Position numbers and translations under genes: made by a program
Shown here: positions 1 to 54,854 of the stretch, one piece after another
Position numbering within the stretch: the stretch's first letter is position 1
How the letters are laid out: every line of letters starts with the position of its first letter
Origin: Haliclystus octoradiatus
Lineage: Eukaryota; Cnidaria; Staurozoa; Stauromedusae; Haliclystidae
Assembly: GCA_916610825.1 (NCBI GenBank)
Contig: OU744446.1
Location: 30,084,445 to 30,148,444, forward strand
Direction of reading: 5' to 3'
DNA: 64,000 nt
The notes under the pieces: generated by a model
Seen by the model: only the letters and a program-made list of their open reading frames with translations
The model's database searches: none
Told to the model about the DNA's origin: nothing

Positions 1-51
1 CCAGATTTTGGGAATATCAGGACGCCAGCGTCAACAATATCTCTATGACAA

Positions 52-555
52 AAGACATTGGACGTCCTCTAGAAAGAAAGTATGTCCGTAGACGTTTCAT
101 TACAACGGCCTTTCTATCTTGCGTGCATCAAACTCGTGATCTTCCTCCTTCCGCCATTTTTGAGGGCGAAGCACACACGATGAAATTGACCTGCTAGAAA
201 ATGTATTTAGTCAGCTTATATCAACCCCAAAACAAAGATCATCAACATCAACAGGTGAATTAAAATCATGCACATTGCCACTATTATTTTTTAAGCAGTA
301 AATACGAAACACGATTTTAATAGAATTTTGTATACTTCATTTTCCTTTATTTTAGATTTGCTACCGCGACCTGAGCAAGAGCAGGATAACATCAGCTGCT
401 TCAAATCAACTCCCATAATAACATATTCAAGATTAATAGGTAAACTAAAATCAGGCATATCGCTACGATATGATTTAATTTTAGTTTTACTAATTTTATT
501 TTCATTTTCTTCAGATTTTAACCGCTCGCGGCAGGCTCTACGGCATGCAATCTGA
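52..555 (+). pseudogene. Left-arm copy of the foldback exon series (frameshifted)
   Basis: This mirrors the exon series of the right arm (9961-10479, minus strand). Exon-like pieces are 52-254, 356-439 and from 515, each bounded by AG acceptors and GT donors. Relative to the right arm a 7-bp deletion near 180-190 shifts the frame and gives an early TAG. The second exon stays open and joins in phase to the third, which stops at TGA 13 codons in. The left arm is therefore the broken copy of the same short gene. Function is unknown. Confidence 0.5.
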
Positions 556-2460
556 GAAAAATTCCCTCTGTTGCTTTTAAAAAACTCTAAATTTCACAAA
601 AATCACAATAAGAGGTAAATAATATTCATATCCATTAGTAGGATTGATTTTCAATGTAATATTTACGAAGTATGATATATATTGAATTGTATTAATTTTA
701 TTCTCATTTTCTTCAGATTTTAACCGCTCGCGGCAGGCTCTACGGCATGTCATCTGAGAAAAATTCCCTCTGTTCCTTTGAATCAACTCTAAATTGAACA
801 AATTTTACAATAAGAGGTAAATAATATTCATATACATTACTTGGATTGATTTTGAATGTAATACGGCATGTCATCTGAGAAAAATTCCCTCTGTTCCTTT
901 GAATCAACTCTAAATTGAACAAATTTCACAATAAGAGGTAAATAATATTCATATCCATTACTTGGATTGATTTTGAATGTAATATTTACGAAGTATGATT
1001 TCTATTGAATTTTACTAATTTTATTCTCATTTTCTTCAGATTTTAACCGCTCGCGGCAGGCTCTACGGCATGTCATCTGAGAAAAATTCCCTCTGTTCCT
1101 TTGAATCAACTCTAAATTGAACAAATTTCACAATAAGAGGTAAATAATATTCATATCCATTACTTGGATTGATTTTGAATGTAATATTTACGAAGTATGA
1201 TTTCTATTGAATTTTACTAATTTTATTCTCATTTTCTTCAGATTTTAACCGCTCGCGGCAGGCTCTACGGCATGTCATCTGAGAAAAATTCCCTCTGTTC
1301 CTTTGAATCAACTCTAAATTGAACAAGTTTCACAATAAGAGGTAAATAATATTCATATCCATTACTTGGATTGATTTTGAATGTAATATTTACGAAGTAT
1401 GATTTCTATTGAATTTTACTAATTTTATTCTCATTTTCTTCAGATTTTAACCGCTCGCGGCAGGCTCTACGGCATGTCATCTGAGAAAAATTCCCTCTGT
1501 TCCTTTGAATCAACTCTAAATTGAACAAATTTCACAATAAGAGGTAAATAATATTCATATCCATTACTTGGATTGATTTTCAATGTAATATTTACGAAGT
1601 ATGATCTCTATTGAATTTTACTAATTTTATTCTCATTTTCTTCAGATTTTAACCATTCGCGGCAGGCTCTACGGCATGTCATCTGAGAAAATTCCCTCTG
1701 TTCCTTTGAATCATCTCTAAATTGAACAAATTTTACAATAAGAGGTAAACAATATTCATATACATTACTTGGATTGATTTTCAATGTAATATTTACGAAG
1801 TATGATTTCTATTGAATTTTACTAATTTTATTCTCATTTTCTTCAGATTTTAACCGCTCGCGGCAGGCTCTACAGCATGTGATCTGAGAGAAGTTCCCTC
1901 TGTTGCTTTGAATCAACTCTAAATTGAACAAATTTTACAATAAGAGGTAAATAATATTCATATACATTACTTGGATTTATTTTGAATGTAATAATTACGA
2001 AATATGATATATATTGAATTTTACTAATTTTATTTTCATTTTCTTCAGATTAACCGCTCGCGGCAGGCTCTACAGCATGTGATCTGAGAGAAGTTCCCTC
2101 TGTTGCTTTGAATCAACTCTAAATTGAACAAATTTTACAAGAAGAGGTAAATAATATTCATATACAATACTTGGATTGATTTTGAATGTAATAATTACGA
2201 AGTATGATTTATATTGAAATTTACTAATTTTATTTTCATTTTCTTCAGATTTTAACCGCTCGCGGCAGGCTCTACGGCATGTCATCTGAGAAAAATTCCC
2301 TCTGTTGCTTTGAATCAACTCCAACTTGAACAAATTTCAAAATAAGAGGTAAATAATATTCATATACATTAATAGGATTGATTTTCGATGTAATATTTAC
2401 GAAGTATGTTTTATATTGAATTTTACTAATTTTATTTTCATTTTCTTCAGGTTTCAACCG
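470..2460 (+). repeat. ~202-bp tandem repeat array, left arm
   Basis: About ten units at ~202-bp spacing (for example 1040, 1242, 1444), plus one truncated unit near 840-900. Each unit holds a ~100-nt block with GC-rich motif CCGCTCGCGGCAGG. The block is preceded by a pyrimidine-rich TTTTCTTCAG and followed by AAGAG/GTAAAT, so every unit looks like an exon with its own splice sites. Minus-strand open frames of up to 87 codons cross units, but they follow from the repeat and are not called as genes. Confidence 0.9.
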
Positions 2461-2752
2461 CCCTCATGATACCAACAATAGGATGCGATGAAACATTTCA
2501 CCTCGACACCACATCATAATATAATGAAAATGATATCAGGACATAATTTCACATGTAAACTAGCTTCATTTTATGTGTGTATTATCCGTAAAGACAAAAA
2601 ATTGATATGCACTTTCATAGTATTGCAAAGTCTTGATTTCTTGAAAATAACACTCTGACACCTTAAACTTAAACGTAAAATGTAAACTTGAAGGTTTTCT
2701 GAATAAATGATGATGATGATGATGACACCGCAACTTGTAGATTTTATTTTGT
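2460..2752. other. Single-copy spacer of the left foldback arm
   Basis: AT-rich sequence without a gene, ending in a short GAT run near 2708. It recurs inverted at about 8745-9030, confirming that both arms share the same internal order. Confidence 0.7.
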
Positions 2753-5620
2753 ACTAAATAGAGTTATATCTATATAGAACCAAAAGTAAGAGGTGCACAT
2801 GGATGATTTTCAGATATATTGCACAAAAAGACATATACTATCATTAAATGGAACATTCATCTTCGTTTGTTTCAATTATATCCTAAAATTTATTGTGTTT
2901 TCATATCATACATAAAAAGTCTTGATTTTCACTTGCACCGCAAATGACAGATTTCGTACTATACTCAAAATTTGTCTCAATAGATCCAAAAGTAAGAGGT
3001 ACACATGGATGATTTTCAGATATATTGCACAAAAAGACATATACTATCATTAAATGGAACATTCATCTTCGTTTGTTTCAATTATATCCTAAAATTTATT
3101 GTGTTTTCATATCATACATAAAAAGTCTTGATTTTCACTTGCACCGCAAATGACAGATTTCGTACTATACTCAAAATTTGTCTCAATAGATCCAAAAGTA
3201 AGAGGTACACATGGATGATTTTCAGATATATTGCACAAAAAGACATATACTATCATTAAATGGAACATTCATCTTCGTTTGTTTCAATTATATCCTAAAA
3301 TTTATTGTGTTTTCATATCATACATGAAAAGTCTTGATTTTCACTTACACCGCAAATGACAGATTTCGTACTATACTCAAAATTTGTCTCAATAGACCCA
3401 AAAGTAAGAGGTACACATGGATGGTTTTCAGATATATTGCACAAAAAGACATATACTATCATTAAATGGAACATTCATCTTCGTTTGTTTCAATTATATC
3501 CTAAAATTTATTGTGTTTTCATATCATACATAAAAAGTCTTGATTTTCACTTGCACCGCAAATGACAGATTTCGTACTATACTCAAAATTTGTCTCAATA
3601 GATCCAAAAGTAAGAGGTACACATGGATGATTTTCAGATATATTGCACAAAAAGACATATACTATCATTAAATGGAACATTCATCTTCGTTTGTTTCAAT
3701 TATATCCTAAAATTTATTGTGTTTTCATATCATACATAAAAAGTCTTGATTTTCACTTGCACCGCAAATGACAGATTTCGTACTATACTCAAAATTTGTC
3801 TCAATAGATCCAAAAGTAAGAGGTACACATGGATGATTTTCAGATATATTGCACAAAAAGACATATACTATCATTAAATGGAACATTCATCTTCGTTTGT
3901 TTCAATTATATCCTAAAATTTATTGTGTTTTCATATCATACATGAAAAGTCTTGATTTTCACTTACACCGCAAATGACAGATTTCGTACTATACTCAAAA
4001 TTTGTCTCAATAGACCCAAAAGTAAGAGGTACACATGGATGGTTTTCAGATATATTGCACAAAAAGACATATACTATCATTAAATGGAACATTCATCTTC
4101 GTTTGTTTCAATTATATCCTAAAATTTATTGTGTTTTCATATCATACATGAAAAGTCTTGATTTTCGCTTACACCGCAAATGACAGATTTCGTACTATAC
4201 TCAAAATTTGTCTCAATAGACCCAAAAGTAAGAGGTACACATGGATGATTTTCAGATATATTGCACAAAAAGACATATACTATCATTAAATGGAACATTC
4301 ATCTTCGTTTGTTTCAATTATATCCTAAAATTTATTGTGTTTTCATATCATACATAAAAAGTCTTGATTTTCACTTGCACCGCAAATGACAGATTTCGTA
4401 CCATACTCAAAATTTGTCTCAATAGATCCAAAAGTAAGAGGTACACATGGATGATTTTCAGATATATTGCACAAAACGACATATACTATCATTAAATGGA
4501 ACATTCATCTTCGTTTGTTTCAATTATATCCTAAAATTTATTGTGTTTTCATATCATACATGAAAAGTCTTGATTTTCACTTACACCGCAAATGACAGAT
4601 TTCGTACTATACTCAAAATTTGTCTCAATAGACCCAAAAGTAAGAGGTACACATGGATGGTTTTCAGATATATTGCACAAAAAGACATATACTATCATTA
4701 AATGGAACATTCATCTTCGTTTGTTTCAATTATATCCTAAAATTTATTGTGTTTTCATATCATACATGAAAAGTCTTGATTTTCGCTTACACCGCAAATG
4801 ACAGATTTCGTACTATACTCAAAATTTGTCTCAATAGACCCAAAAGTAAGAGGTACACATGGATGATTTTCAGATATATTGCACAAAAAGACATATACTA
4901 TCATTAAATGGAACATTCATCTTCGTTTGTTTCAATTATATCCTAAAATTTATTGTGTTTTCATATCATACATAAAAAGTCTTGATTTTCACTTGCACCG
5001 CAAATGACAGATTTCGTACCATACTCAAAATTTGTCTCAATAGATCCAAAAGTAAGAGGTACACATGGATGATTTTCAGATATATTGCACAAAACGACAT
5101 ATACTATCATTAAATGGAACATTCATCTTCGTTTGTTTCAATTATATCCTAAAATTTATTGTGTTTTCATATCATACATGAAAAGTCTTGATTTTCACTT
5201 ACACCGCAAATGACAGATTTCGTACTATACTCAAAATTTGTCTCAATAGACCCAAAAGTAAGAGGTACACATGGATGGTTTTCAGATATATTGCACAAAA
5301 AGACATATACTATCATTAAATGGAACATTCATCTTCGTTTGTTTCAATTATATCCTAAAATTTATTGTGTTTTCATATCATACATGAAAAGTCTTGATTT
5401 TCACTTACACCGCAAATGACAGATTTCGTACTATACTCAAAATTTGTCTCAATAGACCCAAAAGTAAGAGGTACACATAGATGATTTTCAGATATATTGC
5501 ACAAAAAGACATATACTATCATTAAATGGAACATTCAACTTCATTTGTTTCAATTATATCCTAAAATATTTAGTGCTTCCATAATTCATGAAAAGTCTGA
5601 TTTTCACAAACACCGTATTG
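2753..5620 (+). repeat. 206-bp satellite, left arm, with 618-bp higher-order repeat
   Basis: About 14 head-to-tail units of 206 bp. From 3974 onward variant units recur every third monomer: diagnostic changes (TACCATAC, AAAACGAC, GATGGTTTT, TTTTCGCTTACACC) repeat at 618-bp spacing, as seen at 3974, 4592 and 5210. The 69-codon frames at 3356, 3974, 4592 and 5210 are by-products of this periodicity. Confidence 0.93.
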
Positions 5621-5639
5621 TATGATGTAATAATATACA

Positions 5640-5909
5640 ATTCCATGAAATACATGCAACCGACACCTCATGTCTCAAAGCAATTAACCATCTTGCATCA
5701 AAAACAATTTACCAAATTCAGCAAGGTTATGGCGCAAGACCATGGGCAATAGCCACGATTGCGGGATATTTGCTGTTGCAAATGCCATAGCCTTAGCTGA
5801 AGATATTAAACCAGAAACTATTGTCTTTGACAAAGTAAAAATGAGAAGGCACGTAATCCAAATGTTGGAAAACCGAAAAGTGGAAATGTTTCCACATGAG
5901 GTTTTATAA
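5640..5909 (+). pseudogene. Ulp1/C48-like cysteine protease C-terminal fragment
   Basis: The frame 5745-5909 reads GNSHDCGIFAVANAIAL and then a KMRRHVIQMLE stretch before a stop. That matches the C-terminal end of Ulp1/SENP-like peptidases found in several transposons: the DCG with the catalytic Cys, then an MR-H-LE helix. Upstream, the same protein appears to continue in another frame (YQIQQGYG), which implies a frameshift near 5725-5745. The catalytic His and Asp region is absent or decayed. It sits in the core of the foldback element, in the same orientation as the left-arm exons, so it may be the last exon of the original element gene. The motif is short, so confidence is moderate. Confidence 0.5.
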
Positions 5910-6292
5910 TTAATCCAAATATTTGAGTGACCTGATCAAACACAAACTGAATCGTATATTATCACGTCGTCCTTTTCAAAACTACTTGACTATTATTTGA
6001 CCCGGTATTTGGTTTATTTGAACATTTTTCCCTTTGTGGTACTCTACATTAGTGACAGGATACCAGTTATTAGTTCGTTGTATTGCCATCGTCAAGCTAT
6101 TTAGTTGGGCTATTATAGCATATAATGCGGTAAATGATTTATATTTTATTCCTATAAATCATGTACTAATTATTAATATATACTTTGTAATACTTTTTAA
6201 TGTAAAAAACCGAAACCAAGGTATAAAAAAGTATATACATAACTTTTGGGTCTTTTGGCAGTGTAAAATACCCTAAACATCTATTATCCATG
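5910..6292. other. Unassigned core of the foldback element
   Basis: AT-rich and not part of either satellite. An 80-codon frame (6034-6276) shows no recognisable domain. Nothing else was found. Confidence 0.4.
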
Positions 6293-8745
6293 TTAAATTC
6301 GATCATTAATTTTACTATCCTTTGATGACAGAATGAAATATCTCACTTGCCTTGTATAAGAGAATATCAAAACTTTTCGTGTATAATATGAAAACACAAT
6401 AAATTTTAGGATATAATTGAAACAAACGAAGATGAATGTTCCATTTAATGATAGTATATGTCTTTTTGTGCAATATATCTGAAAATCATCCACGTGTACC
6501 TTTTACTTTTGGATCTATTGATACAAATTTTGAGTATAGTACGAAATCTGTCATCTACGGTGTTTGTGAAAATCAGACTTTTCATGTATATTATGGAAGC
6601 ACAAAATATTTTAGGATATAATTGAAACAAATGAAGTTGAATGTTCCATTTAATGATAGTATATGTCTTTTTGTGCAATATATCTGAAAATCATCCATGT
6701 GTACTTCTTACTTTTGGATCTATTGATACAAATTTTGAGTATAGTACGAAATCTGTCATCTACGGTGTTTGTGAAAATCAGACTTTTCATGTATATTATG
6801 GAAGCACAAAATATTTTAGGATATAATTGAAACAAATGAAGTTGAATGTTCCATTTAATGATAGTATATGTCTTTTTGTGCAATATATCTGAAAATCATC
6901 CACGTGTACCTCTTACTTTTGGATCTATTGATACAAATTTTGAGTATAGTACGAAATCTGTCATCTATACGGTGTTTGTGAAAATCAGACTTTTCATGTA
7001 TATTATGGAAGCACAATAAATTTTAGGATATAACTGAAACAAATGAAGTTGAATGTTCCATTTAATGATAGTATATGTCTTTTTGTGCAATATATCTGAA
7101 AATCATCCATGTGTACCTCTTACTTTTGGGTCTATCGCTATAAATTTTGAGTATAGTACGAAATCTGTCATTTGCAGTGTAAGTGAAAATCAAGACTTTT
7201 CATGTATGATATGAAAACACAATAAAATTTAGGATATAATTGAAACAAACGAAGATGAATGTTCCATTTAATGATAGTATATGTCTTTTTGTGCAATATA
7301 TCTGAAAATCATCCATGTGTACCTCTTACTTTTGGATCTATTTATACAAATTTTGAGTATAGTACGAAATCTGTCATTTGCAGTGTAAGTGAAAATAAAG
7401 ACTTTCCATGTATACCATATTGCAACTAAAATAAAATTTTATGATATAATTGAAACAAAAGAAGTTGAATGTTCCATTTAATGATAGTATATGTCTTTTT
7501 GTGCAATATATCTGAAAATCATCCATGTGTACCTCTTACTTTTGGGTCTATCGCTATAAATTTTGAGTATAGTACGAAATCTGTCATTTGCAGTGTAAGT
7601 GAAAATCAAGACTTTTCATGTATGATATGAAAACACAATAAAATTTAGGATATAATTGAAACAAACGAAGATGAATGTTCCATTTAATGATAGTATATGT
7701 CTTTTTGTGCAATATATCTGAAAATCATCCATGTGTACCTCTTACTTTTGGGTCTATCGCTATAAATTTTGAGTATAGTACGAAATCTGTCATTTGCAGT
7801 GTAAGTGAAAATCAAGACTTTTCATGTATGATATGAAAACACAATAAAATTTAGGATATAATTGAAACAAACGAAGATGAATGTTCCATTTAATGATAGT
7901 ATATGTCTTTTTGTGCAATATATCTGAAAATCATCCATGTGTACCTCTTACTTTTGGATCTATTTATACAAATTTTGAGTATAGTACGAAATCTGTCATT
8001 TGCAGTGTAAGTGAAAATAAAGACTTTCCATGTATACCATATTGCAACTAAAATAAAATTTTATGATATAATTGAAACAAAAGAAGTTCAATGTTCCATT
8101 TAATGATAGTATATGTCTTTTTGTGCAATATATCTGAAAATCGTCCACGTGTACCTCTTACTTTTGGATCTATTGATACAGATTTTGAGTATAGTACGAA
8201 ATCTGTCATCTACGGTGTTTGTGAAAATCAGACTTTTCATGTATATTATGGAAGCACAATAAATTTTAGGATATAATTGAAACAAATGAAGATGAATGTT
8301 CCATTTAATGATAGTATATGTCTTTTTGTGCAATATATCTGAAAATCATCCATGTGTACCTCTTACTTTTGGATCTATTGAGACAAATTTTTGAGTATAG
8401 TACGAAATCTGTCATTTGCGGTGTAAGTGAAAATCAAGACTTTTCATGTATGATATGAAAACACAATAAATTTTAGGATCTACGTGTACCTCTTACTTTT
8501 GGATCTATCGCTATAAATTTTGAGTATAGTACGAAATCTGTCATTTGCGGTTAAGTGAAAATCAAGACTTTTCATGTATGATATGAAAACACAATAAATT
8601 TTAGGATATAATTGAAACAAACGAAGATGAATGTTCCATTTAATGATAGTATATGTCTTTTTGTGCAATATATCTGAAAATCATCCATGTGCACCTCTTA
8701 CTTTTGGTTCTATATAGATATAACTCTATTTAGTACAAAATAAAA
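6293..8745 (-). repeat. 206-bp satellite, right arm (inverted)
   Basis: About 12 units of the same 206-bp satellite in opposite orientation. They are more diverged than in the left arm, with a few truncated units (for example the short unit near 8475). The clear triplet periodicity of the left arm is weaker here. Confidence 0.9.
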
Positions 8746-9030
8746 TCTACAAGTTGCGGTGTCATCATCATCATCATCATTTATTCAGAAAACCTTCAAG
8801 TTTAAATTTTACGTTTAAGTTTAAGGTGTCAGAGTGTTTTTTTCAAGAAATTAAGACTTTGTAATACTATGAAAGTGCATATCAATTTTTTGTCTTTACG
8901 GATAATACACACATAAAATGAAGTTAGTTTACATGTGAAATTATGTCCTGAAATCATTTTCATTATATTATTATGTGGTGTCGAGGTGAAATGTTTCATC
9001 GGATTCTATTGTTGGTATCATGAGGGCGGT
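8746..9030. other. Single-copy spacer of the right foldback arm
   Basis: Reverse complement of the left-arm spacer (2460-2752), including the short ATC/GAT run. No gene seen. Confidence 0.7.
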
Positions 9031-10050
9031 TGAAACCTGAAGAAAATGAAAATAAATTAGTAAAATTCAATATAAAAGATACTTCATAATTATTACATTG
9101 AAAATCAATCCTAGTAATGTATATGAATATTATTTACCTCTTATTGTGAAATTTGTTCAATTTAGAGATGATTCAAAGCAACAGAGGGAATTTCTCTCAG
9201 ATCACATGCTGTAGAGCCTGCCGCGAGCGGTTAAAATCTGAAGAAAATGAAAATAAAATTAGTAAAATTCAATATAAATCATACTTCGTAAATATTACAT
9301 TGAAAATCAATCCTTGTAATGTATATGAATATTATTTACCTCTTATTGTGAAATATGTTCAATTTAGAGTTGATTCAAAGCAACAGAGGGAATTTCTCTC
9401 AGATCACATGCTGTAGAGCCTGCCGCGAGCGGTTAAAATCTGAAGAAAATGAAAATAAAATTAGTAAAATTCTATATAAAACATACTTAGTAATTATTAC
9501 ATTCAAAATCAATCCTAGTAATGTATATGAATATTATTTACCTCTCATTGTGAAATTTGTTCAATTTGGAGTTGATTCAAAGCAACAGAGTGAAGTTTTC
9601 TCAGATTGCATGCCGTAGAGCCTGCCGCGAGCGGTTAAAATCTGAAGAAAATGAAAATAAAATCAGTAAAATTCTATATAAAACATACTTAGTAATTATT
9701 ACATTCAAAATCAATCCTAGTAATGTATATGAATATTATTTACCTCTTATTGTGAAATTTGTTCAATTTGGAGTTGATTCAAAGCAACAGAGTGAAGTTT
9801 TCTCAGATTGCATGCCGTAGAGCCTGCCGCGAGCGGTTAAAATCTGAAGAAAATGAAAATAAAATTAGTAAAATTCAATATAAAACATACTTCGTAAATA
9901 TTACATCAAAAATCAATCATATTAATTAATGGATATGAATATTAACTGAGCGAATTTTTCTCAGATGACATGCCGTAGAGCCTGCCGCGAGCGGTTAAAA
10001 TCTGAAGAAAATAAAAATAAAAGTAGTAAAATTTAAATTAAATCATATCG
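9031..10050 (-). repeat. ~202-bp tandem repeat array, right arm
   Basis: About five inverted units of the 202-bp repeat of the left arm. Splice-like boundaries are kept on the minus strand. The 87-codon plus-strand frames at 9153, 9355 and 9557 are successive repeat units read in the same frame, not independent genes. Confidence 0.9.
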
Positions 10051-10479
10051 TAGCGATATGCCTGATTGTAGTTTACCTATTAATCTTGAATATGTTATTA
10101 TGGGAGTTGATTTGAAGCAGCTGATGTTATCCTGCTCTTGCTCAGGTCGCGGTAGCAAATCTAAAATAAAAGGAAAATGAAGTATACAAAATTCTATAAA
10201 AATCGTGTTTCGTATTCACTGCATAAAAAGTAATAGTGGCAATGTGCATGATTTTAATTCACCTGTTGATGTTGATGATCTTCGTTTTGGGGTTGATATA
10301 AGCTGACTAAATACATTTTCTAGCAGGTCAATTTCAATTTTCATCGTGTGTGCTTCGCCCTCGAAGATGGCGGAAGGAGGAAGATCACGAGTTTGATGCA
10401 CGCAAGATAGAAAGGCCGTTGTAATCAAACGTCTACGGACATACTTTCTTTCTAGAGGACGTCCAATGTCTTTTGTCAT
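9961..10479 (-). CDS. Predicted spliced 113-aa protein in the right foldback arm
   Basis: Three minus-strand exons join without a stop: 10479-10263 (217 nt, starts MTKDIGRPLE), 10160-10077 (84 nt) and 10001-9961 (41 nt to TGA). Donors are GTGAAT and GTAAAC; acceptors are TTTATTTTAG and TTTTCTTCAG. Every junction is phase 1, and the total is 342 nt. The product is basic at the N-terminus with a run KRRSSTST; no domain is recognised. The open frame also continues upstream of this ATG, past the arm end to 10626, so the true start is uncertain. The last exon is the first member of the 202-bp repeat array. It may be a relic of the element's own gene. Confidence 0.4.
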
Positions 10480-10562
10480 AAGAGATATTGTTGACGCTGG
10501 CGTCCTGATATTCCCAAAACTCGTCATATGTTTTAGACCAATCAGGAAAGAGATATGGACGA

Positions 10563-10659
10563 TGACGTCATATTTTAAAAATAGTAAAATGACGTAAGGA
10601 AGGAACAGCACTTGATCCATTGACACCCTCCTGCAATGACATCATACAAAATTACGTCA
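10563..10659 (+). promoter_or_regulatory. Cluster of CRE/ATF-like sites upstream of gene A
   Basis: Three TGACGT-type sites: TGACGTCA at 10563, TGACGTAA at 10590 and TTACGTCA at 10652. They sit 30-120 bp upstream of the promoter block shared with gene B and are not seen at the matching place upstream of copy B. A regulatory role is inferred from motif and position only. Confidence 0.35.
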
Positions 10660-10685
10660 TTTTTAATGACCTTTCGAAAAGAGGC

Positions 10686-10780
10686 CACGTGAGCAAGCCA
10701 GAGCCGAAGTTCCGCTTTCGGGATAAAAACTTGACGTTCAAGCATCAAGTAGATATCAGCCATATTACGCAAGTATAGAA
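10686..10780 (+). promoter_or_regulatory. Promoter of cytokine-like gene A
   Basis: This block is conserved with 21026-21118, upstream of copy B. It contains an E-box CACGTG (10686-10691), an ISRE-like AGTTCCGCTTTC (from 10708) and a TATA-like TATAGAA (10774-10780). The spacing between elements is nearly the same in both copies. The ISRE-like site differs by one base from the AGTTTCNNTTTC consensus. Confidence 0.5.
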
Positions 10781-30571: not shown

Positions 30572-33500
30572 TTATGGCTGATACCAATTCGGAGTACGAC
30601 GGATACGGGTTGAATTTTGTTGTTGACCTTTGTCTTTATCTTTGTCTTGGTCTATGCCTTGGGCGGGGTCTTGCTGGTAGGGGCGGAGAAATCGTCGGTT
30701 TCGCCACTTGAGGCGGTTTGTTTCTGTCTTTACTAGATAGCTGTGTCGACCTTCATATGCTTCAATTATGCTGGCAACGGTGTCCCACTGTTGTGTTTTC
30801 GGATTTTGTACCAATACTATTGTACCAGGTAATAAATCTTCTAAGGGTTTGGAATGTTGGTCCTTGTAGGCCTTTGCCTTCTGCCGGAGAGTGATAGCTT
30901 TCTTATCAGCAGCGTTGATTTCTTCTCTTATATCTTTACAAAATATTGCGGGTCCAACTGGCAGGCGTGTTCGAGTTGGGCGTCCAAAGAGACGTTGTGC
31001 TGGCGATATTCCATCCTTTTTGGGGGTGTTTCTATACTCTAATAGACCTTCCAAAAATTCCTTTGTATTAATATTTCCTTTAGGCGTGGTTTTCTTTACT
31101 AAAGTCTTCATAGATTTAATTTCTGCTTCAGCAAATCCATTGCTTTGGTGGTTGTATGGGGACGAGGGATCATGCTTTATACCCCACACTTGACAAAATT
31201 TTTTGAAGTCTTGTGACTTGAACTGTGGGCCACCATCAGATTCTAGGTTGACTGCAATGCCAAGTTTAGCGCTCCATTGAGTTATGCGTTCTACGACATC
31301 GTCAGTATTGCTTCCTCCTCTACCAAGGTCATATACTTCTGGCCATCCAGAAAGACGATCAACAATCACCAGATATTCTTTACCAGCATAACTGAAGAGG
31401 TCCATGGCTATAGCTTGACCAGGCCACGTAGGTGCTTCTGCTTGGCAGATTGGCTCTAGAGGCTGACTGGGTTGATTTAGTTGACATGGTTGGCAATGTT
31501 TCACACTTTGAGTGATATCGTTTACCATCTGAGGCCAATACACCGTTTGTCTAGCTCTGCCTAGTGTTCTCTCTATGCCTTGATGAGCCGCATGCAGAAG
31601 TTTTAACATCTCTGGTCTCAACGACATTGGAATGACAATTCTTTGACCATACATGATGAGATCTTCATGCAAAGACAAACTTTCTCGCACATTCCAGAAC
31701 GAATGTAGATCTAAATCTAGGCTGTGCTTGTCAGCCGGAAATCCTTCTTTATTGATTTCTTTCAGCTTAATGTATGCGCTGTCTTTTGAGGCAGCTGCAG
31801 TGACTTTAGATAAATTGACGTCTTTCAATGCTGCATAAGCTGCCACTAGCATGTTTAGAGCGACTTGATTGACTAAAGTATGAATACTTGCACTTTCATC
31901 TTTGTCTTCGTCATTAGGTTCACTTGTTGGATACCTTGAAAATACATCAGCAACAGTGTGTGCTGTTCCAGGACGCCATACAGCAATCGGACAACATCTG
32001 TTGAGCTTTTCCTTCAGGCGGATGATGCGTGGAGTTGTCACTTGATCATAACTCTTGTTGTTGATTATTGATATCAGTGGCTTGTGGTCAGTGACCAACT
32101 GAAAATGGGCACCATGTACAAATAGTTTACATTTTTCAACAGCCCAAACAACAGCTAACAGTTCTATTTCCGTTGCAGAATACCTTGTTTCGGCAGGGAT
32201 CAGCGAACGACTTCCACATTGAAGCAAATACCATTCGTCGGTGTCATGTTCTTGCTGCCAGAGGGCGAATCCAAGGCCACGAGATTGTGCAGCATCCGTC
32301 TCCAATCGTAGCTTTGATCCTGCTCTGTAATGTGTTGATACGCGTGGGGATGTGAGTAGCGAGATTAACTCTTTAAATGCTTCTTGCTGTTCCACTCCCC
32401 AAATAAACACAGTTTTTGGTGACAGGAGTGCATGGAGTGGTTCAGCCAATTCACCTACACGAGAGCTAAAAACATCAAATTGGCGGATCAAACCACAAAA
32501 CGACCTTAAATCTGTTCGATTTGAAGGAGTTGGGAATGATGTAAGGGCTTCTACTAGCTCTTGTGAAATGGTATAGCCTTCTTTACATAGTTGATAACCA
32601 CACCATTGTATACTTGGTTGGGCATAAATAAACTTTTTACTGTTTAGTGTTATACCTGCTGTTCGGCATCTCTCTATTACTGCTCTGACACGTGCATCAT
32701 GCTGAGGACCCGGTTCTTTGTCAAAAATTATAACATCTTCAACAATTTTTTTCACGTTTTCTATGCCTTTGAGGGCTTCATCGCCCCGGCGATTATGTTC
32801 ATCCCCTGCTGATATGAGACCCATGGCATTTCTCAAAAACCTTTTTGGTCCCCAAGGGGTGATAAATGTTGTTAGCGTTTTACTATTTTCGTCCAAGGGT
32901 ACCTGCCAGTATCCATGACGTGCATCTAGGGTGGTAAACACGCCCATCCCGGGTGGGATTTGTAAAACTTCTTCTTTAGGGGTTTTCATCATGTACCCCG
33001 GGCGTTTGACAAACCGATTTAGCTTGGTGAAGTCAACAGTTATTCTAGGTTCATCACACCCTTTCTTTGGAACAATGACCATAGGATGGGACCAATCTGG
33101 CTTTTCTCCTAGAGGGACATCTTCAATTATTCCTTTTAGCATCATTTGATCTAATTGCTTTTTGACTGGCTCTTGCCAATGGAGAGGAATTTGATATGCT
33201 TTATAACATTTTGAAGGAATAGCATCTTCTGTTAGTTCAATGCTCATTGGAGGTCCAGACATGGGTGGGAGAGGGCCATCAGAAGTAAATACATCTGAAA
33301 AGTCTGCTAATATTTTTTGCTTCAGTTGGTCCTGACTTGAATCTTTCGAAGTGGGCACTATGTGGGTTGCTTTGGGAGAGCTTGGGGGTCCCAGGGATAA
33401 TGCTTGTAACGGGACCTTCGGCCATTCTTTAGGAATCAATTTGAGAGCAATACAACCTGCTCTGCTTAATAAAGGATGGGTTACTTCATTCAAAATGTGT

Positions 33501-34888
33501 ACTTTGGCCTTGTACCTATGAGTTTCACGAAATATTTCCAAAATAACATACCCATGGGACTCTAGAGGGGAACCATTTGGTCCCACTAAATGTTCATTTT
33601 CAGGCTTAAAGTCAACATCATTAGCCCCCATTAATTGGTGAAGATCTTGGAGTCCCATTGCGTCACATCCTGCCCCAGTATCAGCTAGCCAATTTATTTG
33701 CTTGCTGTGATTTCTATGGGTGGTTTGCAGTGCAATCAAATTTTCCTGGTGGCTACTTATGTGAGCAATTTCAATACAGTTTTGCGATACTTGTGATTTT
33801 GTAAAGCAAAACTTCTGCAAATGACCCTTTTTCTTGCATTTGTGACACTCTAAATTGATGGCAGGGCAATCTCCTTTTTCATGTTTGGTTCCACATCGGC
33901 CACATGCGTCATTTGCCGTGTTTTTCGCGCCAGTATTTTTCGCGGCTTGAAACTGTTTCGGATGTTTTTGAAACTTCTGTTTTTTGTAGGCGGACATCGC
34001 TCTGTTGGCGTTCACGCTTTTTTCTGTTAATTGATCATCAACATTACGACTTGCCTCGTAATTTTGGCAAATGTCTAAAGTAGCTTTTAAACTTAATTTT
34101 TCAAGCGGTGTTTCGAGTACCCTTTGTCTCATTCCTGAGTCCATTAGGCCTGATATAACACGGTCCCTTAATCGTTCTTCACGATGAATTGCATGGTTTG
34201 GACAATCCTCGGTGGAATATCCACAGTCTTCATCAATTTCCCTCAGTGCGGCGTAATAATTGTTAACGCTTTCCCCCTGTTGTTGATCACGTTGAATAAA
34301 AACGCGTCGGTCTACAAGTGGGTGGCGATGAATTCGCAGATAATCTTTTAATGCCTTAATAATTTCAGCAATATCATCAGTATCTTTTATTTTGATAATT
34401 TCTTGGGTCCACATTTTTGTCCACTCTTCGTTGAGTGTTGATCTTAATAAACCTCGGCGTGCGTTTAAATCACATTCTTGATGTAGTCTCGTAGCAGCAG
34501 CGTAATCATTAAATCTGATTTCCCAGTCACGAAAATCTATCAATTTCATGCCTTCAGGACTTTTAAGTTTCGGCATTGATATACGTTTGGCTGTTTGAAG
34601 ATTTGCTGGTGAATTAGAAGAGCCTTGATGGACATTCGAAGTTGAAGTGCCCATATTCATAGTCTTGAAAGCATTAGTAAGTGACTCACCCTGTGACTTC
34701 ATTGCTTCCGCCAACGCCTTTTGCATTTCTTGCTGTTGAGCCATCATTACTTCTTGCATTTTTGTTTGCTGGTCAGTAACCGATTGTAAGATTAACAGCA
34801 TTGGATCTTTCGAGAAATTAGCTAGTTCTTGTCTGAGTTGAACTACTTCTGCTTCCAAGTCCGCTTTCGTTGGGTTCTTATTAGCCAT
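30572..34888 (-). CDS. Gag-Pol polyprotein of the Gypsy-type element
   Basis: A single 1438-aa frame in Gypsy order. Gag is about 1-320. Two zinc-knuckle-like segments follow (CGRCGTKHEKGDC at 329-341; CHKCKKKGHLQKFC at 348-361). Retropepsin is DTGAG (403-407). The RT shows TTLDARHGYWQVPL (first Asp 655) and then KIVEDVIIF at 714-722. RNase H acidic residues are D865, E907, D934 and D981. The integrase zinc finger is H1099, H1103, C1132 and C1135, and the DD35E core is D1163, D1218 and E1254. Oddity: the RT box normally reading xVDD is VED here, so the first catalytic Asp of the pair is Glu. All other key residues are present, so this copy may have lost RT activity very recently or tolerate the change. 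Confidence 0.93.
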   Translation of the reverse strand: MANKNPTKADLEAEVVQLRQELANFSKDPMLLILQSVTDQQTKMQEVMMAQQQEMQKALAEAMKSQGESLTNAFKTMNMGTSTSNVHQGSSNSPANLQTAKRISMPKLKSPEGMKLIDFRDWEIRFNDYAAATRLHQECDLNARRGLLRSTLNEEWTKMWTQEIIKIKDTDDIAEIIKALKDYLRIHRHPLVDRRVFIQRDQQQGESVNNYYAALREIDEDCGYSTEDCPNHAIHREERLRDRVISGLMDSGMRQRVLETPLEKLSLKATLDICQNYEASRNVDDQLTEKSVNANRAMSAYKKQKFQKHPKQFQAAKNTGAKNTANDACGRCGTKHEKGDCPAINLECHKCKKKGHLQKFCFTKSQVSQNCIEIAHISSHQENLIALQTTHRNHSKQINWLADTGAGCDAMGLQDLHQLMGANDVDFKPENEHLVGPNGSPLESHGYVILEIFRETHRYKAKVHILNEVTHPLLSRAGCIALKLIPKEWPKVPLQALSLGPPSSPKATHIVPTSKDSSQDQLKQKILADFSDVFTSDGPLPPMSGPPMSIELTEDAIPSKCYKAYQIPLHWQEPVKKQLDQMMLKGIIEDVPLGEKPDWSHPMVIVPKKGCDEPRITVDFTKLNRFVKRPGYMMKTPKEEVLQIPPGMGVFTTLDARHGYWQVPLDENSKTLTTFITPWGPKRFLRNAMGLISAGDEHNRRGDEALKGIENVKKIVEDVIIFDKEPGPQHDARVRAVIERCRTAGITLNSKKFIYAQPSIQWCGYQLCKEGYTISQELVEALTSFPTPSNRTDLRSFCGLIRQFDVFSSRVGELAEPLHALLSPKTVFIWGVEQQEAFKELISLLTSPRVSTHYRAGSKLRLETDAAQSRGLGFALWQQEHDTDEWYLLQCGSRSLIPAETRYSATEIELLAVVWAVEKCKLFVHGAHFQLVTDHKPLISIINNKSYDQVTTPRIIRLKEKLNRCCPIAVWRPGTAHTVADVFSRYPTSEPNDEDKDESASIHTLVNQVALNMLVAAYAALKDVNLSKVTAAASKDSAYIKLKEINKEGFPADKHSLDLDLHSFWNVRESLSLHEDLIMYGQRIVIPMSLRPEMLKLLHAAHQGIERTLGRARQTVYWPQMVNDITQSVKHCQPCQLNQPSQPLEPICQAEAPTWPGQAIAMDLFSYAGKEYLVIVDRLSGWPEVYDLGRGGSNTDDVVERITQWSAKLGIAVNLESDGGPQFKSQDFKKFCQVWGIKHDPSSPYNHQSNGFAEAEIKSMKTLVKKTTPKGNINTKEFLEGLLEYRNTPKKDGISPAQRLFGRPTRTRLPVGPAIFCKDIREEINAADKKAITLRQKAKAYKDQHSKPLEDLLPGTIVLVQNPKTQQWDTVASIIEAYEGRHSYLVKTETNRLKWRNRRFLRPYQQDPAQGIDQDKDKDKGQQQNSTRIRRTPNWYQP

Positions 34889-35005
34889 AATAAACCACGA
34901 AATAAATACTGAGTTTTCACTGGATTATAACCATGTAAGTCCGTTTAACATTAATAACAATGATTCAATAAATAACTTTATTTATTGAACTTTATAACTG
35001 CGCCA

Positions 35006-35974: not shown

Positions 35975-51805
<15,831 letters not shown>

Positions 51806-52460: not shown

Positions 52461-53020
52461 TATTACAAACTATTACAAAATGTCCTGATTCACTGTTCAA
52501 TTGTTTTGCGAAAAACAGTTACATCATTTGGATTGTGCATGAACAATCCGCAAAACTTAATTGCTGCAAGTATACATAAATGACTACGCAGGGACTTTTC
52601 TTGTATCTATTAATATTGAATTGTGTAGAACTAATGTTAATGTTATGATGAATGTTCTTGACATTGTAATGCCTATAATGGTAGTATTGAAGGGATAAAT
52701 TGTTTTCACCGTTACCGCAAGCATAGCCATAACCACCTGGCTTGAACTATATGCTACCGATGTTTTATGCTTTCAAATGTCCTGAAAATGACGTCATTAT
52801 GTGACACAGTTTATTGTGGGCTAGCATACTGTAATGGGACAAACAATCTACTTCATAAGATTTCCTTAGCCTACATACCATCCCCAGGGCTTCCCAGTAA
52901 AGTATTGATTTTGCTGAACAATCTTAGATTAAACGCACGGGTTAGTTTACGGAGACCCTACCGATGAATGTCTTGAACAATTATCGCACTGGCTAGCTTC
53001 CTGAGGCCCTACAGTACCAA
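52461..53020. other. Intergenic sequence 3' of NAA20
   Basis: No gene or repeat recognised. Confidence 0.35.
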
Positions 53021-54595
53021 AGGATTGTAAGATACGAAGACAATAGACGAATAAACACCCGAATAGTATAGTATAACGACTGTAGTATTTACGCTATTAC
53101 CATTTAAATCGAAAGTTAATTTGATTGTCCCGGCCTGAACTAGAGCGCGATTATCGACGCCAACGTAATTATGTGGACTGAACGGAGCCAACGTGCTATC
53201 GAATTTGCCTATTGATTTCAGAAAGTCAAGACCTGCAACGGTTCCTTGAGCACCTGTGTCGCAGACAGCAGGGAAACGACCTAACAGTTTATTGTCTTCC
53301 CTAACATCGACATCAATTGTCGGTAATTTGCCACCATTGGAAGCTTGCATCGATTTAATAACTGATGTGCTCACGGTTTTGGTTTTCTCTAAGGACTTTA
53401 AACGTTTACGGCAAACTTTTGAGTAATGCCCTTTGAGGCCACAGTGGTCACATGTCACGTTTGCGGCAGGGCAGACTGATGTAAAATGCTTAACATAGCC
53501 GCACTTAGAACAAGGGCTTACTGAATTACTTGACTTGGAAGCAGAGTTACTGTCGTCATGCTTCGTTTTCTGTTGACGTTTATTATGATTTTTCTTAGCT
53601 TTGGTAGATTGTACATTACCAATTGTGCTATGTGTGGCGTGGGCTTGTTGACCTAGGGTACTAACAGTGGAAGAAGCGGCTTCTTCGGTTTGTAAAAATT
53701 TGAGAGTGTCCTCTAGGTTTAGCGGGGGAGATTTTGCGATAACTTTGCGTTTTAAATTTTCATCCCTTAAACCTAGTACTAGAACAGCGGTCCGCAGTGC
53801 TTCTGGAGTCACTGCATCTACATTAGCATAGTCACTTTTCTCCATTAAATACGTGTAATATTGATCAATTAACTGGTTTGAGCCTTGAGTGACTGTGAGA
53901 AAGCTTTGCCAGTCGAGGTTAGAGTTGCGCTTAGATCTTAAGTGATCGGTTATCTTTTTCAGTATTAACTTAAGGGAGTCCGTCGTTGAACGTTCGATTT
54001 TGATGACGCGGCGTACCATGTTCAGAAATGCTGGGGAACACAGACCCCAAAAGGTAGCAATTTGCCTATCGTGAGGCTGGGCGTCTAAATCAATAATCGC
54101 GATATAATTCAAAAATACCTCCTGCCAATCCAGGAACTGCTTTAGGTTGATGTCTGCATCTAATGTTGGTGGTGTCTTTATGACAGGTCGGGCAGAGGTC
54201 TGAACGTTGACTTGCTGAGACGTGCTTTCTCGGTTTTCTGGATCAGTGGTGCTTGTGACTACGGTTTTCGGCACAACGGCCGTAACGGCACGCACTTGTC
54301 TCTCGAGGTCATAAAAACTGTTTTCTAATTCAACCAATTGTGGCTCTTCCGGGTCTTCTGCTCCATCTTTGATGGGTTCTTGTACCAACACGGCCAAATG
54401 TGACGCCACATAGCGTTCCAGCGCATCGTGAGCGCGTTTCGTTGTGATCGTCAAATTTTCCCTATCACTTTCAGTTCGTTCTGCTACTTCTGTACTGGTG
54501 AAACTGGTGAGGGATGCCACCAGACGATCTAAGGCTCTTGTCAAATGTCCTTTAAGGCCTGATCGACTGTTTTTCAATAATTTGACATCAGCCAT
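53009..54595 (-). pseudogene. Gag-protease frame fused to LTR by deletion
   Basis: 528 codons. A gag-like helical region (QFLDWQEVFLNY; LDWQSFLTVTQGSNQLIDQYY) is followed by two zinc knuckles, CSKCGYVKHFTSVC (362-375) and CDHCGLKGHYSKVC (382-395). Then comes retropepsin DTGAQG (446-451). Pol is missing: at about residue 510 the frame runs over the deletion junction into the remaining LTR, where its last residues are encoded. It may still produce Gag but cannot reverse-transcribe itself. Confidence 0.88.
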
Positions 54596-54854
54596 CGTGA
54601 CGCAATAAAATTAAACTCTTTGAATAACGTAAAATATTACTGTCCAAATAACAGGATCAACTGCGCCATGTAAGATACGAAGACAATAGACGAATAAACA
54701 CCCGAATAGGTATATCCTGTTGATCTGAATCATGTATTTAATATTACGTACATACGACCTTCTACACTGGTCGTCACTAACACTCTGATTTAAAACTGCG
54801 CAATCATTTAGTTATAAATAACCTTACGCATGCGCATACGATAGATACATTACA
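53026..54854 (-). mobile_element. Internally deleted LTR retrotransposon (gag-protease only)
   Basis: The 5' LTR on the minus strand is complete (54669-54854, 186 bp). The 3' LTR is reduced to its outer ~41 bp (53026-53066). A perfect 5-bp duplication AGGAT flanks both ends (53021-53025, 54855-54859), so the deletion came after, or during, integration. The primer-binding site TGGCGCAGTT matches that of the element at 30326-35209, and both LTRs begin TGTAAGAT, suggesting one lineage. Confidence 0.88.
54669..54854 (-). repeat. Complete LTR of the deleted element
   Basis: Starts TGTAAGATACG and ends ACATTACA (plus strand). Only its first ~41 bp recur at 53026. Confidence 0.85.

Follow-up and report, generated by a model that had tools for sequence, protein, structure and literature searches.

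What kind of element carries an array of exons in its inverted repeats, and do these exons act as splice decoys or are they a by-product of repeat expansion? This question is raised by a locus in the staurozoan Haliclystus octoradiatus, located within the window analysed here (the whole stretch of 64,000 nucleotides, positions 30,084,445 to 30,148,444 of contig OU744446.1). An initial annotation had described a foldback element at positions 6 to 10519 and named both options.

The inverted arms of this interval were recovered (6–863 pairs with 10519–9697 at 89%, with longer module and satellite matches beyond), but the extent was not: positions 6–10519 are the inner part of a larger foldback element, which runs from C1:30084340, 105 bp ahead of the window start, to window position 10628 and is bordered by a 9-bp target duplication. 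Its termini are GGGTTGCG at one end and GGGTGTCA at the other. The outermost 105 bp of the left outer domain, including the terminus GGGTTGCGATGGATC, precede the window.

Searching the genome for further copies with these termini, we found both ends in inverted order at 12 loci on seven contigs, with unrelated flanks. Perfect target duplications of 9–10 bp were present at 8 of the 12 loci, versus none of 132 mixed flank pairs. Three two-ended loci (C2a, C2b and C7c) showed no target duplication, and at C11 the sequence matching the duplication was shifted by several bases. Every two-ended locus (12 of 12) combines one L-type with one R-type end, with single changes in C5a and C2a, and in all ten loci that keep the core its orientation starts at the L-type end. 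The element thus belongs to a non-coding family of mobile DNA with at least a dozen copies, a transposon as first proposed. It is a foldback element both in its long inverted arms with a variable number of internal tandem repeats and in its mobility, several copies sharing ends and target duplications. Long inverted repeats and satellites are difficult to assemble, yet the 12 loci on seven contigs with their unrelated flanks and target duplications make an assembly artefact or segmental duplication extremely improbable, and refute it for the family. Transposons of the P superfamily (Galileo) have a P/THAP transposase and shorter target duplications; the length of 9–10 bp thus speaks against this assignment.

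From the outside in, the arms consist of exon 1, the 84-nt exon 2, an array of 202-bp exon/intron modules, a last acceptor and a 206-bp satellite (Table 1). The two leading exons and the satellite inward of the array had been correctly noted in both arms; satellite and module are two distinct repeats. The counts of about ten blocks on the left and five on the right also held, but not the claim that each has its own acceptor and donor: the left array comprises nine modules with their own acceptor and one partial copy without, which begins inside an exon near 862 and has its donor at 938, and the terminal segment opened by the last left acceptor (2451) is without a good donor. This last acceptor was located in 26 of the 27 arm pieces, and in 23 of these 26 an AATAAA lies 3' of it. 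An Rfam search of window positions 1–10700, up to E = 1, found no known RNA.

Table 1. Features of the foldback element, in window positions
Feature	Position	Strand	Remarks
Left outer domain (L-type arm)	1..513	+	
Insertion hot spot	136..153	+	immediately 5' of exon 1 ATG
Left exon 1	180..254	+	ATG to donor; frame broken in this arm
Left exon 2	356..439	+	84 nt, phase 1 open (DLLPRPEQEQDNISCFKSTPIITYSRLI)
Left module array	515..2450	+	
Last left acceptor and terminal segment	2451..2770	+	AATAAA at 2702
Left 206-bp satellite	2774..5615	+	13.8 copies
Core separating the arms	5618..6356	+	
73-aa open stretch	5688..5909	+	likely Ulp1/C48 cysteine protease C-terminus remnant; Pfam PF02902, E = 0.03, below cut-off
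Right 206-bp satellite	6357..8762	-	inverted
Right last acceptor and terminal segment	8763..9036	-	AATAAA 8785-8780, minus strand
Right module array	9037..10001	-	5 modules, outermost partly deleted
Right outer domain (R-type arm)	10002..10628	-	up to true right terminus, inward reading GGGTGTCAATGGATC
Right exon 2	10077..10160	-	84 nt (10160-10077)
Right exon 1	10263..10344	-	frame open, MKIEIDLLENVFSQLISTPKRRSSTST
Target duplication, right copy	10629..10637	.	9 bp, TCCTGCAAT

The left arm contains ten exon starts of acceptor type (the first at 515, the last at 2451) and ten donors, the right arm six exon starts and four GAGGTAA-type donors. Reading inward, these form eight acceptor-to-donor pairs on the left and four on the right, whereas 300 shuffles of each arm averaged 0.03 and 0.00 pairs and the opposite strand had none. 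This agrees with the inward direction initially annotated for both ends. The comparison with shuffled sequence covered 3 of the 27 arm pieces, and strong inward signals were found in all three. Among 148 modules, 125 acceptors and 139 donors were intact, and the acceptor AG was lost in 23 (the 125/23 and 139/9 splits are hand sums, with five anchors without a recognisable donor scored as lost). As sequence features, the modules are thus supported as exon-like units with inward splice signals. A coding role of the young-family modules was rejected, since for each frame of the module exon a stop occurs in 110 or more of 121 modules.

Such an array could be maintained as a splice decoy or poison-exon device, with transcripts of either arm splicing into stop-bearing modules and thereby silencing the element or protecting host transcripts. 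The strong inward signals, the stops in most module exons and the AATAAA beyond the last acceptor would suit such a device, as would nested insertions that concentrate where the promoter would be. In three other copies the hot spot in front of exon 1 holds a different terminal-repeat element, each with a 9-bp duplication (judged by eye). The older relative C7d has an interruption near the hot spot without a clear duplication and was excluded from this count. Most acceptors and donors are intact, and the eight donor columns are less variable than the average column (0.019 versus 0.052), both of which would also be expected from weak selection for splicing. But the exon and intron parts of the module evolve alike (0.049 versus 0.048), modules with a dead acceptor were amplified (9 of 19 in one arm), and the AATAAA tail resembles a retroposon 3' end, the roughly 40 bases around the left signal being common to two other places.

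Array length also changes between near-identical copies. The window and the C10 copies show 5 differences over 4,717 aligned arm bases, and their module arrays differ by 283 bp and their L-type arms by three satellite units. Exact array lengths could be misassembled. Since array length changed in near-identical copies and splice-dead modules were amplified, we favour repeat expansion over a maintained decoy, which we regard as quite unlikely. Judged from these patterns, exon copying is most likely a by-product of repeat growth and not a decoy or working device; of the two options raised initially, it is the by-product that the dead acceptors, the equal exon and intron variation, the stops and the array change support. 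It is also very unlikely that each arm would form a self-contained inward transcription unit, running from a promoter through exons 1 and 2 and an expanding stop-bearing exon array to a poly(A) signal. Were this true, the element would comprise a pair of convergent genes that can both be spliced, the length of the array would tune how frequently transcripts from either end undergo splicing and termination ahead of the core, and a self-silencing or host-protecting device would have been made from a duplicated exon.

Where did the module come from? When exon 2 was aligned with the module exon found in a single older copy, the alignment beat 2000 of 2000 shuffles; aligned directly with the module of the young family, it did not reach significance (166 of 2000 shuffles). 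Exon 2 thus looks related to the module exon, a kinship resting on that one older copy, which suggests a tandem exon duplication in the ancestral gene. In the older copy C10b the module exon is open for 26 codons, given an exon 2-supplied G as in the young family; the exon 2 region of C10b itself is no longer intact. The exon–intron structure and a reading frame that was apparently once open could also point to a Pack-MULE, that is, to exons captured from a host gene. But all exon peptide matches among the best-scored candidates (77 in one search, and 62 in another with the older module peptide) fell in this element family, as did the module matches listed; no host gene fragment was recovered with the exon peptides among the scored candidates, and we consider such a capture highly improbable.

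The core carries the likely C48 remnant, whose other 73 genome matches reach 30–44% identity only. The protease of KI-MULE is linked to C48. In the same genome, MULE-domain matches have C48 matches nearby, and at one locus (L047) MULE, SWIM-like and C48-like ORFs stand in a row (labels assigned by eye). The Phantom subclass is defined by a Phantom transposase with a FLYWCH or SWIM finger, according to the available parts of two accounts (PMC3169594, PMC6446971). No transposase was detected in any copy examined, and no coding partner with these ends was found by end sequence, relaxed end pattern, exon peptides or MULE domain among the best-scoring candidates, a search that a rare partner could escape. 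No MULE match lay near the end matches, the nearest being about 77 kb away on C15 (by eye). C5a, C8a, C7b, C11, C2c, C5c and C5b were rejected as autonomous partners: their extra length is due to insertions into the element, with retroelement-like ORFs or terminal repeats of their own (judged from ORF listings and, for the ends, by eye). The length of C7a is due to satellite. Mutator/MULE elements make 8–11 bp target duplications, in line with the 9 or 10 bp at 8 of 12 loci; neither an encoded transposase nor ends in common with an encoding element were found among the copies seen and the end and MULE matches. Terminal sequences, duplications and the weak remnant in the core fit a non-autonomous Mutator-type foldback element, 'Mutator-type' by resemblance and not as a proven member, since no copy was seen to encode a transposase and no MULE match lay near the end matches.

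By analogy, the element can be placed as resembling Tm1, Muta1 and Tetris, each compared here with the available part of its description. Tm1, a Mutator/Foldback family of root-knot nematodes, likewise makes 9-bp duplications and is mostly non-autonomous. As here, its short terminal motifs are asymmetric, A1 and A2 marking opposite ends, and its arms are composite, with tandem repeats that vary. These repeats are about 14 bp with no exon array in that description, whereas ours are 202 and 206 bp, one being an exon–intron module (PMC3169594). Tetris, a foldback transposon of Drosophila virilis, is likewise built of an outer flanking domain, tandem repeats (about 220 bp), an inner domain and a non-coding middle, and has 8–10 bp duplications, near-identical copies differing in repeat number and repeats that seeded satellite DNA, but neither exon or splice structure nor a C48 remnant in the text available (PMC4079207). 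Muta1, an active MULE of Aedes aegypti (type 2 foldback), likewise has 8–9 bp duplications, a long tandem-repeat TIR, a terminal motif with unpaired positions and numerous non-autonomous derivatives, but encodes a transposase and has 12-bp repeats (PMC5225508). Rehavkus also makes 9-bp duplications and has a minisatellite close to one terminus; it is defined by a transposase with a PHD finger, and in the part of the source at hand its repeat is described only before the 3' TIR (PMC6446971). In KI-MULE, too, a protease is associated with a MULE (PMC8277862, as far as the excerpt goes), whereas our element retains just the 73-aa remnant.

These relatives also bear on whether the repeats might have a role in transposition, either by offering the transposase several binding sites or as a structural spacer, with the splice signals incidental. 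Long TIRs with multiple transposase-binding sites in Galileo (available part of PMC3688188) and the subterminal tandem repeats of Muta1 and Tm1 would speak for this, but the 202-bp unit far exceeds the 9–15 bp repeats described for Muta families. The arms of C7c hold just one and two modules, although this copy has no target duplication and may have become shorter since it inserted. We consider such a role unlikely.

The element is therefore probably a foldback DNA transposon, non-autonomous and of Mutator type (MULE-like); both its arms would derive from the 5' part of a gene, inverted at one end, and its arrays would be a by-product of repeat growth. Given the polarity of the core and the weak remnant, the L-type end may once have been where a transposon gene began, with an Ulp1/C48 protease encoded in the 3' part of that gene. 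The 5' part (promoter, exon 1, exon 2 and tandem exon) would now also be present, inverted, at the other end, so that the spliceable units of both arms point inward as observed. The 202-bp exon-plus-intron unit and the 206-bp unit may have expanded and contracted within the arms by unequal exchange or slippage. For mobility the element would rely on an external transposase recognising its ends and making the observed 9–10 bp duplications. We propose that copying carried the splice sites along with the modules, which is why these still look spliceable.

Foldback elements with tandem-repeat arms are known; what is unusual here is that the repeat is an exon–intron module. The origin of this repeat can be followed back to the duplication of an exon, probably one belonging to the element's own gene, and this offers a concrete path by which exon duplication can lead to repeats in the arms. 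Modules with intact and with dead splice sites coexist in this genome, in some cases within a single array, so that their function can be put to the test.

We searched the assembly (262 Mb, 33 contigs) for further copies of the foldback element at the left edge of the window. The outer 495 bases matched 37 places and the terminal 153 bases 33 places, and 28 tiles of copies were taken for comparison. Alignment of the flanks of genomic copies placed the element's ends 105 bp ahead of the window and at window position 10628 (table), giving a total size of about 10.7 kb. The foldback element initially annotated at 6-10519 is real, but the mobile element is larger, and that span covers only its inner portion. 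TCCTGCAAT is found on both flanks of the window copy. Its inverted arms are confirmed, with about 89% identity across the outer 870 bases and matching that continues inward through the modules (202-bp exon plus intron units) and the satellite.

Other copies with the same termini, as well as target duplications, had been proposed as checks by the initial annotation, and both were found. Twelve loci carry both ends (window, C10, C7a, C7b, C7c, C5a, C5b, C8a, C8b, C2a, C2b and C11, named by contig), and eight of these have perfect target duplications of 9-10 bp, versus none of 132 mixed flank pairs used as control. At C11 we observed a 12-base match with one mismatch, beginning 6 bases inside the right flank; flank comparison revealed no duplication at C2a, C2b and C7c. 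C2c, C2d and C5c have one end together with arm sequence (the end of C5c is cut). Relatives that are either short or older are C11b, C2e, C7d, C7e, C10b and one C15 locus. Between the window copy and C10 we counted 5 differences in 4,717 aligned arm bases, yet the two have different flanks and different target duplications, which suggests that both are products of recent transposition. The element is genuine and was mobile in the recent past.

Each of the 12 loci has one GGGTTGCG-type (L-type) and one GGGTGTCA-type (R-type) end, C5a and C2a deviating by single changes. Ten loci keep the core between the arms, and in all ten it is read from the L-type end. A weakly supported tree was built from 23 of the 27 arm pieces (single arms of single loci), near-identical copies included; in it, arms grouped by end type beyond chance (4 changes, versus 7.8 for shuffles; as few were reached by 2-4 of 500). 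Two groups mixed both arms of one element. Together, these patterns point to an inverted arrangement that predates the majority of copies, the arms having exchanged sequence now and then.

At its outer end, an arm starts with the terminal region, which contains TGACGTCA and a CCAAT-type motif. Exon 1, which has an ATG, and exon 2 come next, and further in lie the 202-bp modules, the last acceptor and the 206-bp satellite. Exons 1 and 2 were readable in 25 of the 27 arm pieces. Three of these (the R-type arms of window, C10 and C5b) have an open exon 1, which reads MKIEIDLLENVFSQLISTPKRRSSTST; in 20 it is 7 bases shorter and runs into a stop, and two differ in other ways. The ATG region of C7d, an older relative, looks similar by eye. 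Exon 2 measures 84 nt in 22 of the 25 and reads exactly DLLPRPEQEQDNISCFKSTPIITYSRLI in 17. The last acceptor was located in 26 arm pieces and is followed after 208-258 bases by AATAAA in 23 of them (missing in C2a_R, C2b_R and C5c). Since the roughly 40 bases around this AATAAA recur at two places elsewhere and resemble the tail of a retroposon, any function of the signal in the arm is uncertain.

The splice signals do point inward from both ends, as annotated. In the three arms analysed out of the 27 pieces, we counted 8 (window left), 4 (window right) and 7 (C8a right) inward acceptor-to-donor pairs, versus shuffle means of 0.03, 0.00 and 0.01 (maxima 2, 1 and 1) and none on the opposite strand. 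In the consensus of the modules, TACTAAT lies about 27 bases ahead of the exon. Summed by hand over 148 module anchors in the 27 arm pieces, the acceptor AG is kept in 125 and the donor GT in 139; AG is intact in all 14 window modules counted.

In the young family (the main copies, including that of the window), exon 2 leaves a G; with this G placed in front, the module exon of the older relative C10b would read DSTARDRLYGMRSEQNTFGGFKSTQK, followed by a stop. Its DNA aligned to exon 2 with a score of 34 (maximum of 2,000 shuffles, 29); the young-family module alone did not stand out, as 166 of 2,000 shuffles reached its score. All 62 assembly matches of the C10b peptide fall within copies of the element family. 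We infer a tandem duplication of one coding exon in the element's own gene, with exon 2 as an early array member and loss of the frame in later modules.

Array size runs from one or two modules in C7c up to about twenty in the right arm of C8a. The left array of the window copy is 283 bp shorter than that of C10, and their L-arm satellites are three units apart. The initial annotation had left open whether the exon array acts as splice decoys or is a by-product of repeat expansion. A splice device is the less likely alternative. Variation in the eight donor columns is 0.019, versus 0.052 for the average column (129 distinct rows), which counts against neutrality, although 61% of module columns vary by 0.02 or less. 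The pyrimidine tract and AG columns are unremarkable (0.043, same rows). However, 9 of 19 modules in the C8a right arm carry a dead AC acceptor, indicating array growth independent of splice competence, and variation is equal between exon and intron columns (0.049 and 0.048; 133 full modules, 111 distinct). A neutral by-product is thus the best reading, being better supported than decoys. The C8a right arm (L016/L017) also gave a hint of a five-module higher-order repeat, with equal-scoring matches 1,011 bp apart.

Coordinates of the element and of related and neighbouring features
Feature	Position	Description
Window copy	C1:30084340 to window 10628	complete element
C10b, older relative	L035 3676-3930, end at C10:6430851	some one and a half modules; one of their exons still open in the phase set by exon 2 of the young family
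C7e, miniature element	C7:25062835-25063084 (L033)	roughly 250 bp, related ends at both sides
Satellite array, 202-bp units	C1:10755494-10763017 (L037, first part)	about 7.5 kb, apart from element copies
L047	C1:10026000-10035999	ORFs 2545-3390, 6231-7376 and 9450-9998: MULE, SWIM-like and C48-like in a row (last two labels by eye)
Long ORFs	window 30572-34924 and 53009-54610	resemble LTR-retrotransposon genes (by eye)
TTTA microsatellite	window 51002-51716	715 bp

A 73-aa open stretch in the core weakly matches the Ulp1/C48 protease (PF02902, E = 0.03, 14.6 bits; cut-off 20.7). Among its 77 genome matches, four are copies of the element; the remaining 73 have 30-44% identity, and some of them lie within open frames of several hundred residues. 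Ten of 85 MULE-domain matches lie, by eye, 3.6 to 7.1 kb from a same-strand C48 match; such proximity, including that in L047, makes a MULE source plausible. Searches by end sequence, relaxed ends and exon peptide, with the best candidates scored, revealed no coding element with the foldback element's ends, and placement as Mutator-type is by resemblance.

Three different terminal-repeat elements are inserted shortly before the ATG of exon 1, at most 18 bases from each other, with 9-bp duplications identified by eye (TGATCTTCC in C11, CTCCTTCCG in C2c, GTGATCTTC in C5c). A fourth insertion, with an 8-bp duplication, is in exon 2 of C5b. For four random insertions in a 545-base stretch, the chance of three so close is about 1%, in a test picked after the pattern was seen. 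Since Mutator-like elements prefer sites in or near genes (PMC6446971), this cluster is circumstantial evidence that the arms may work as promoters.

Units of the separate satellite array on C1 are 83-88% like the start of the element's core, and the C15 locus has a lone 206-bp unit beside core sequence and an L-type-like end. Tetris of Drosophila virilis likewise has foldback arms linked to satellites (PMC4079207). Between them, accounts of Tm1 (PMC3169594), Muta1 (PMC5225508) and Tetris (PMC4079207) and a survey of MULEs (PMC6446971) describe duplications of 8-10 bp as well as asymmetric ends, composite arms and variable repeats; PMC13359780 and PMC8277862 were consulted too. Among the titles and abstract openings listed, from mostly open literature, we found no description of an exon array in foldback arms. 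The kind of element is already known; the repeat of exon modules is what is new.
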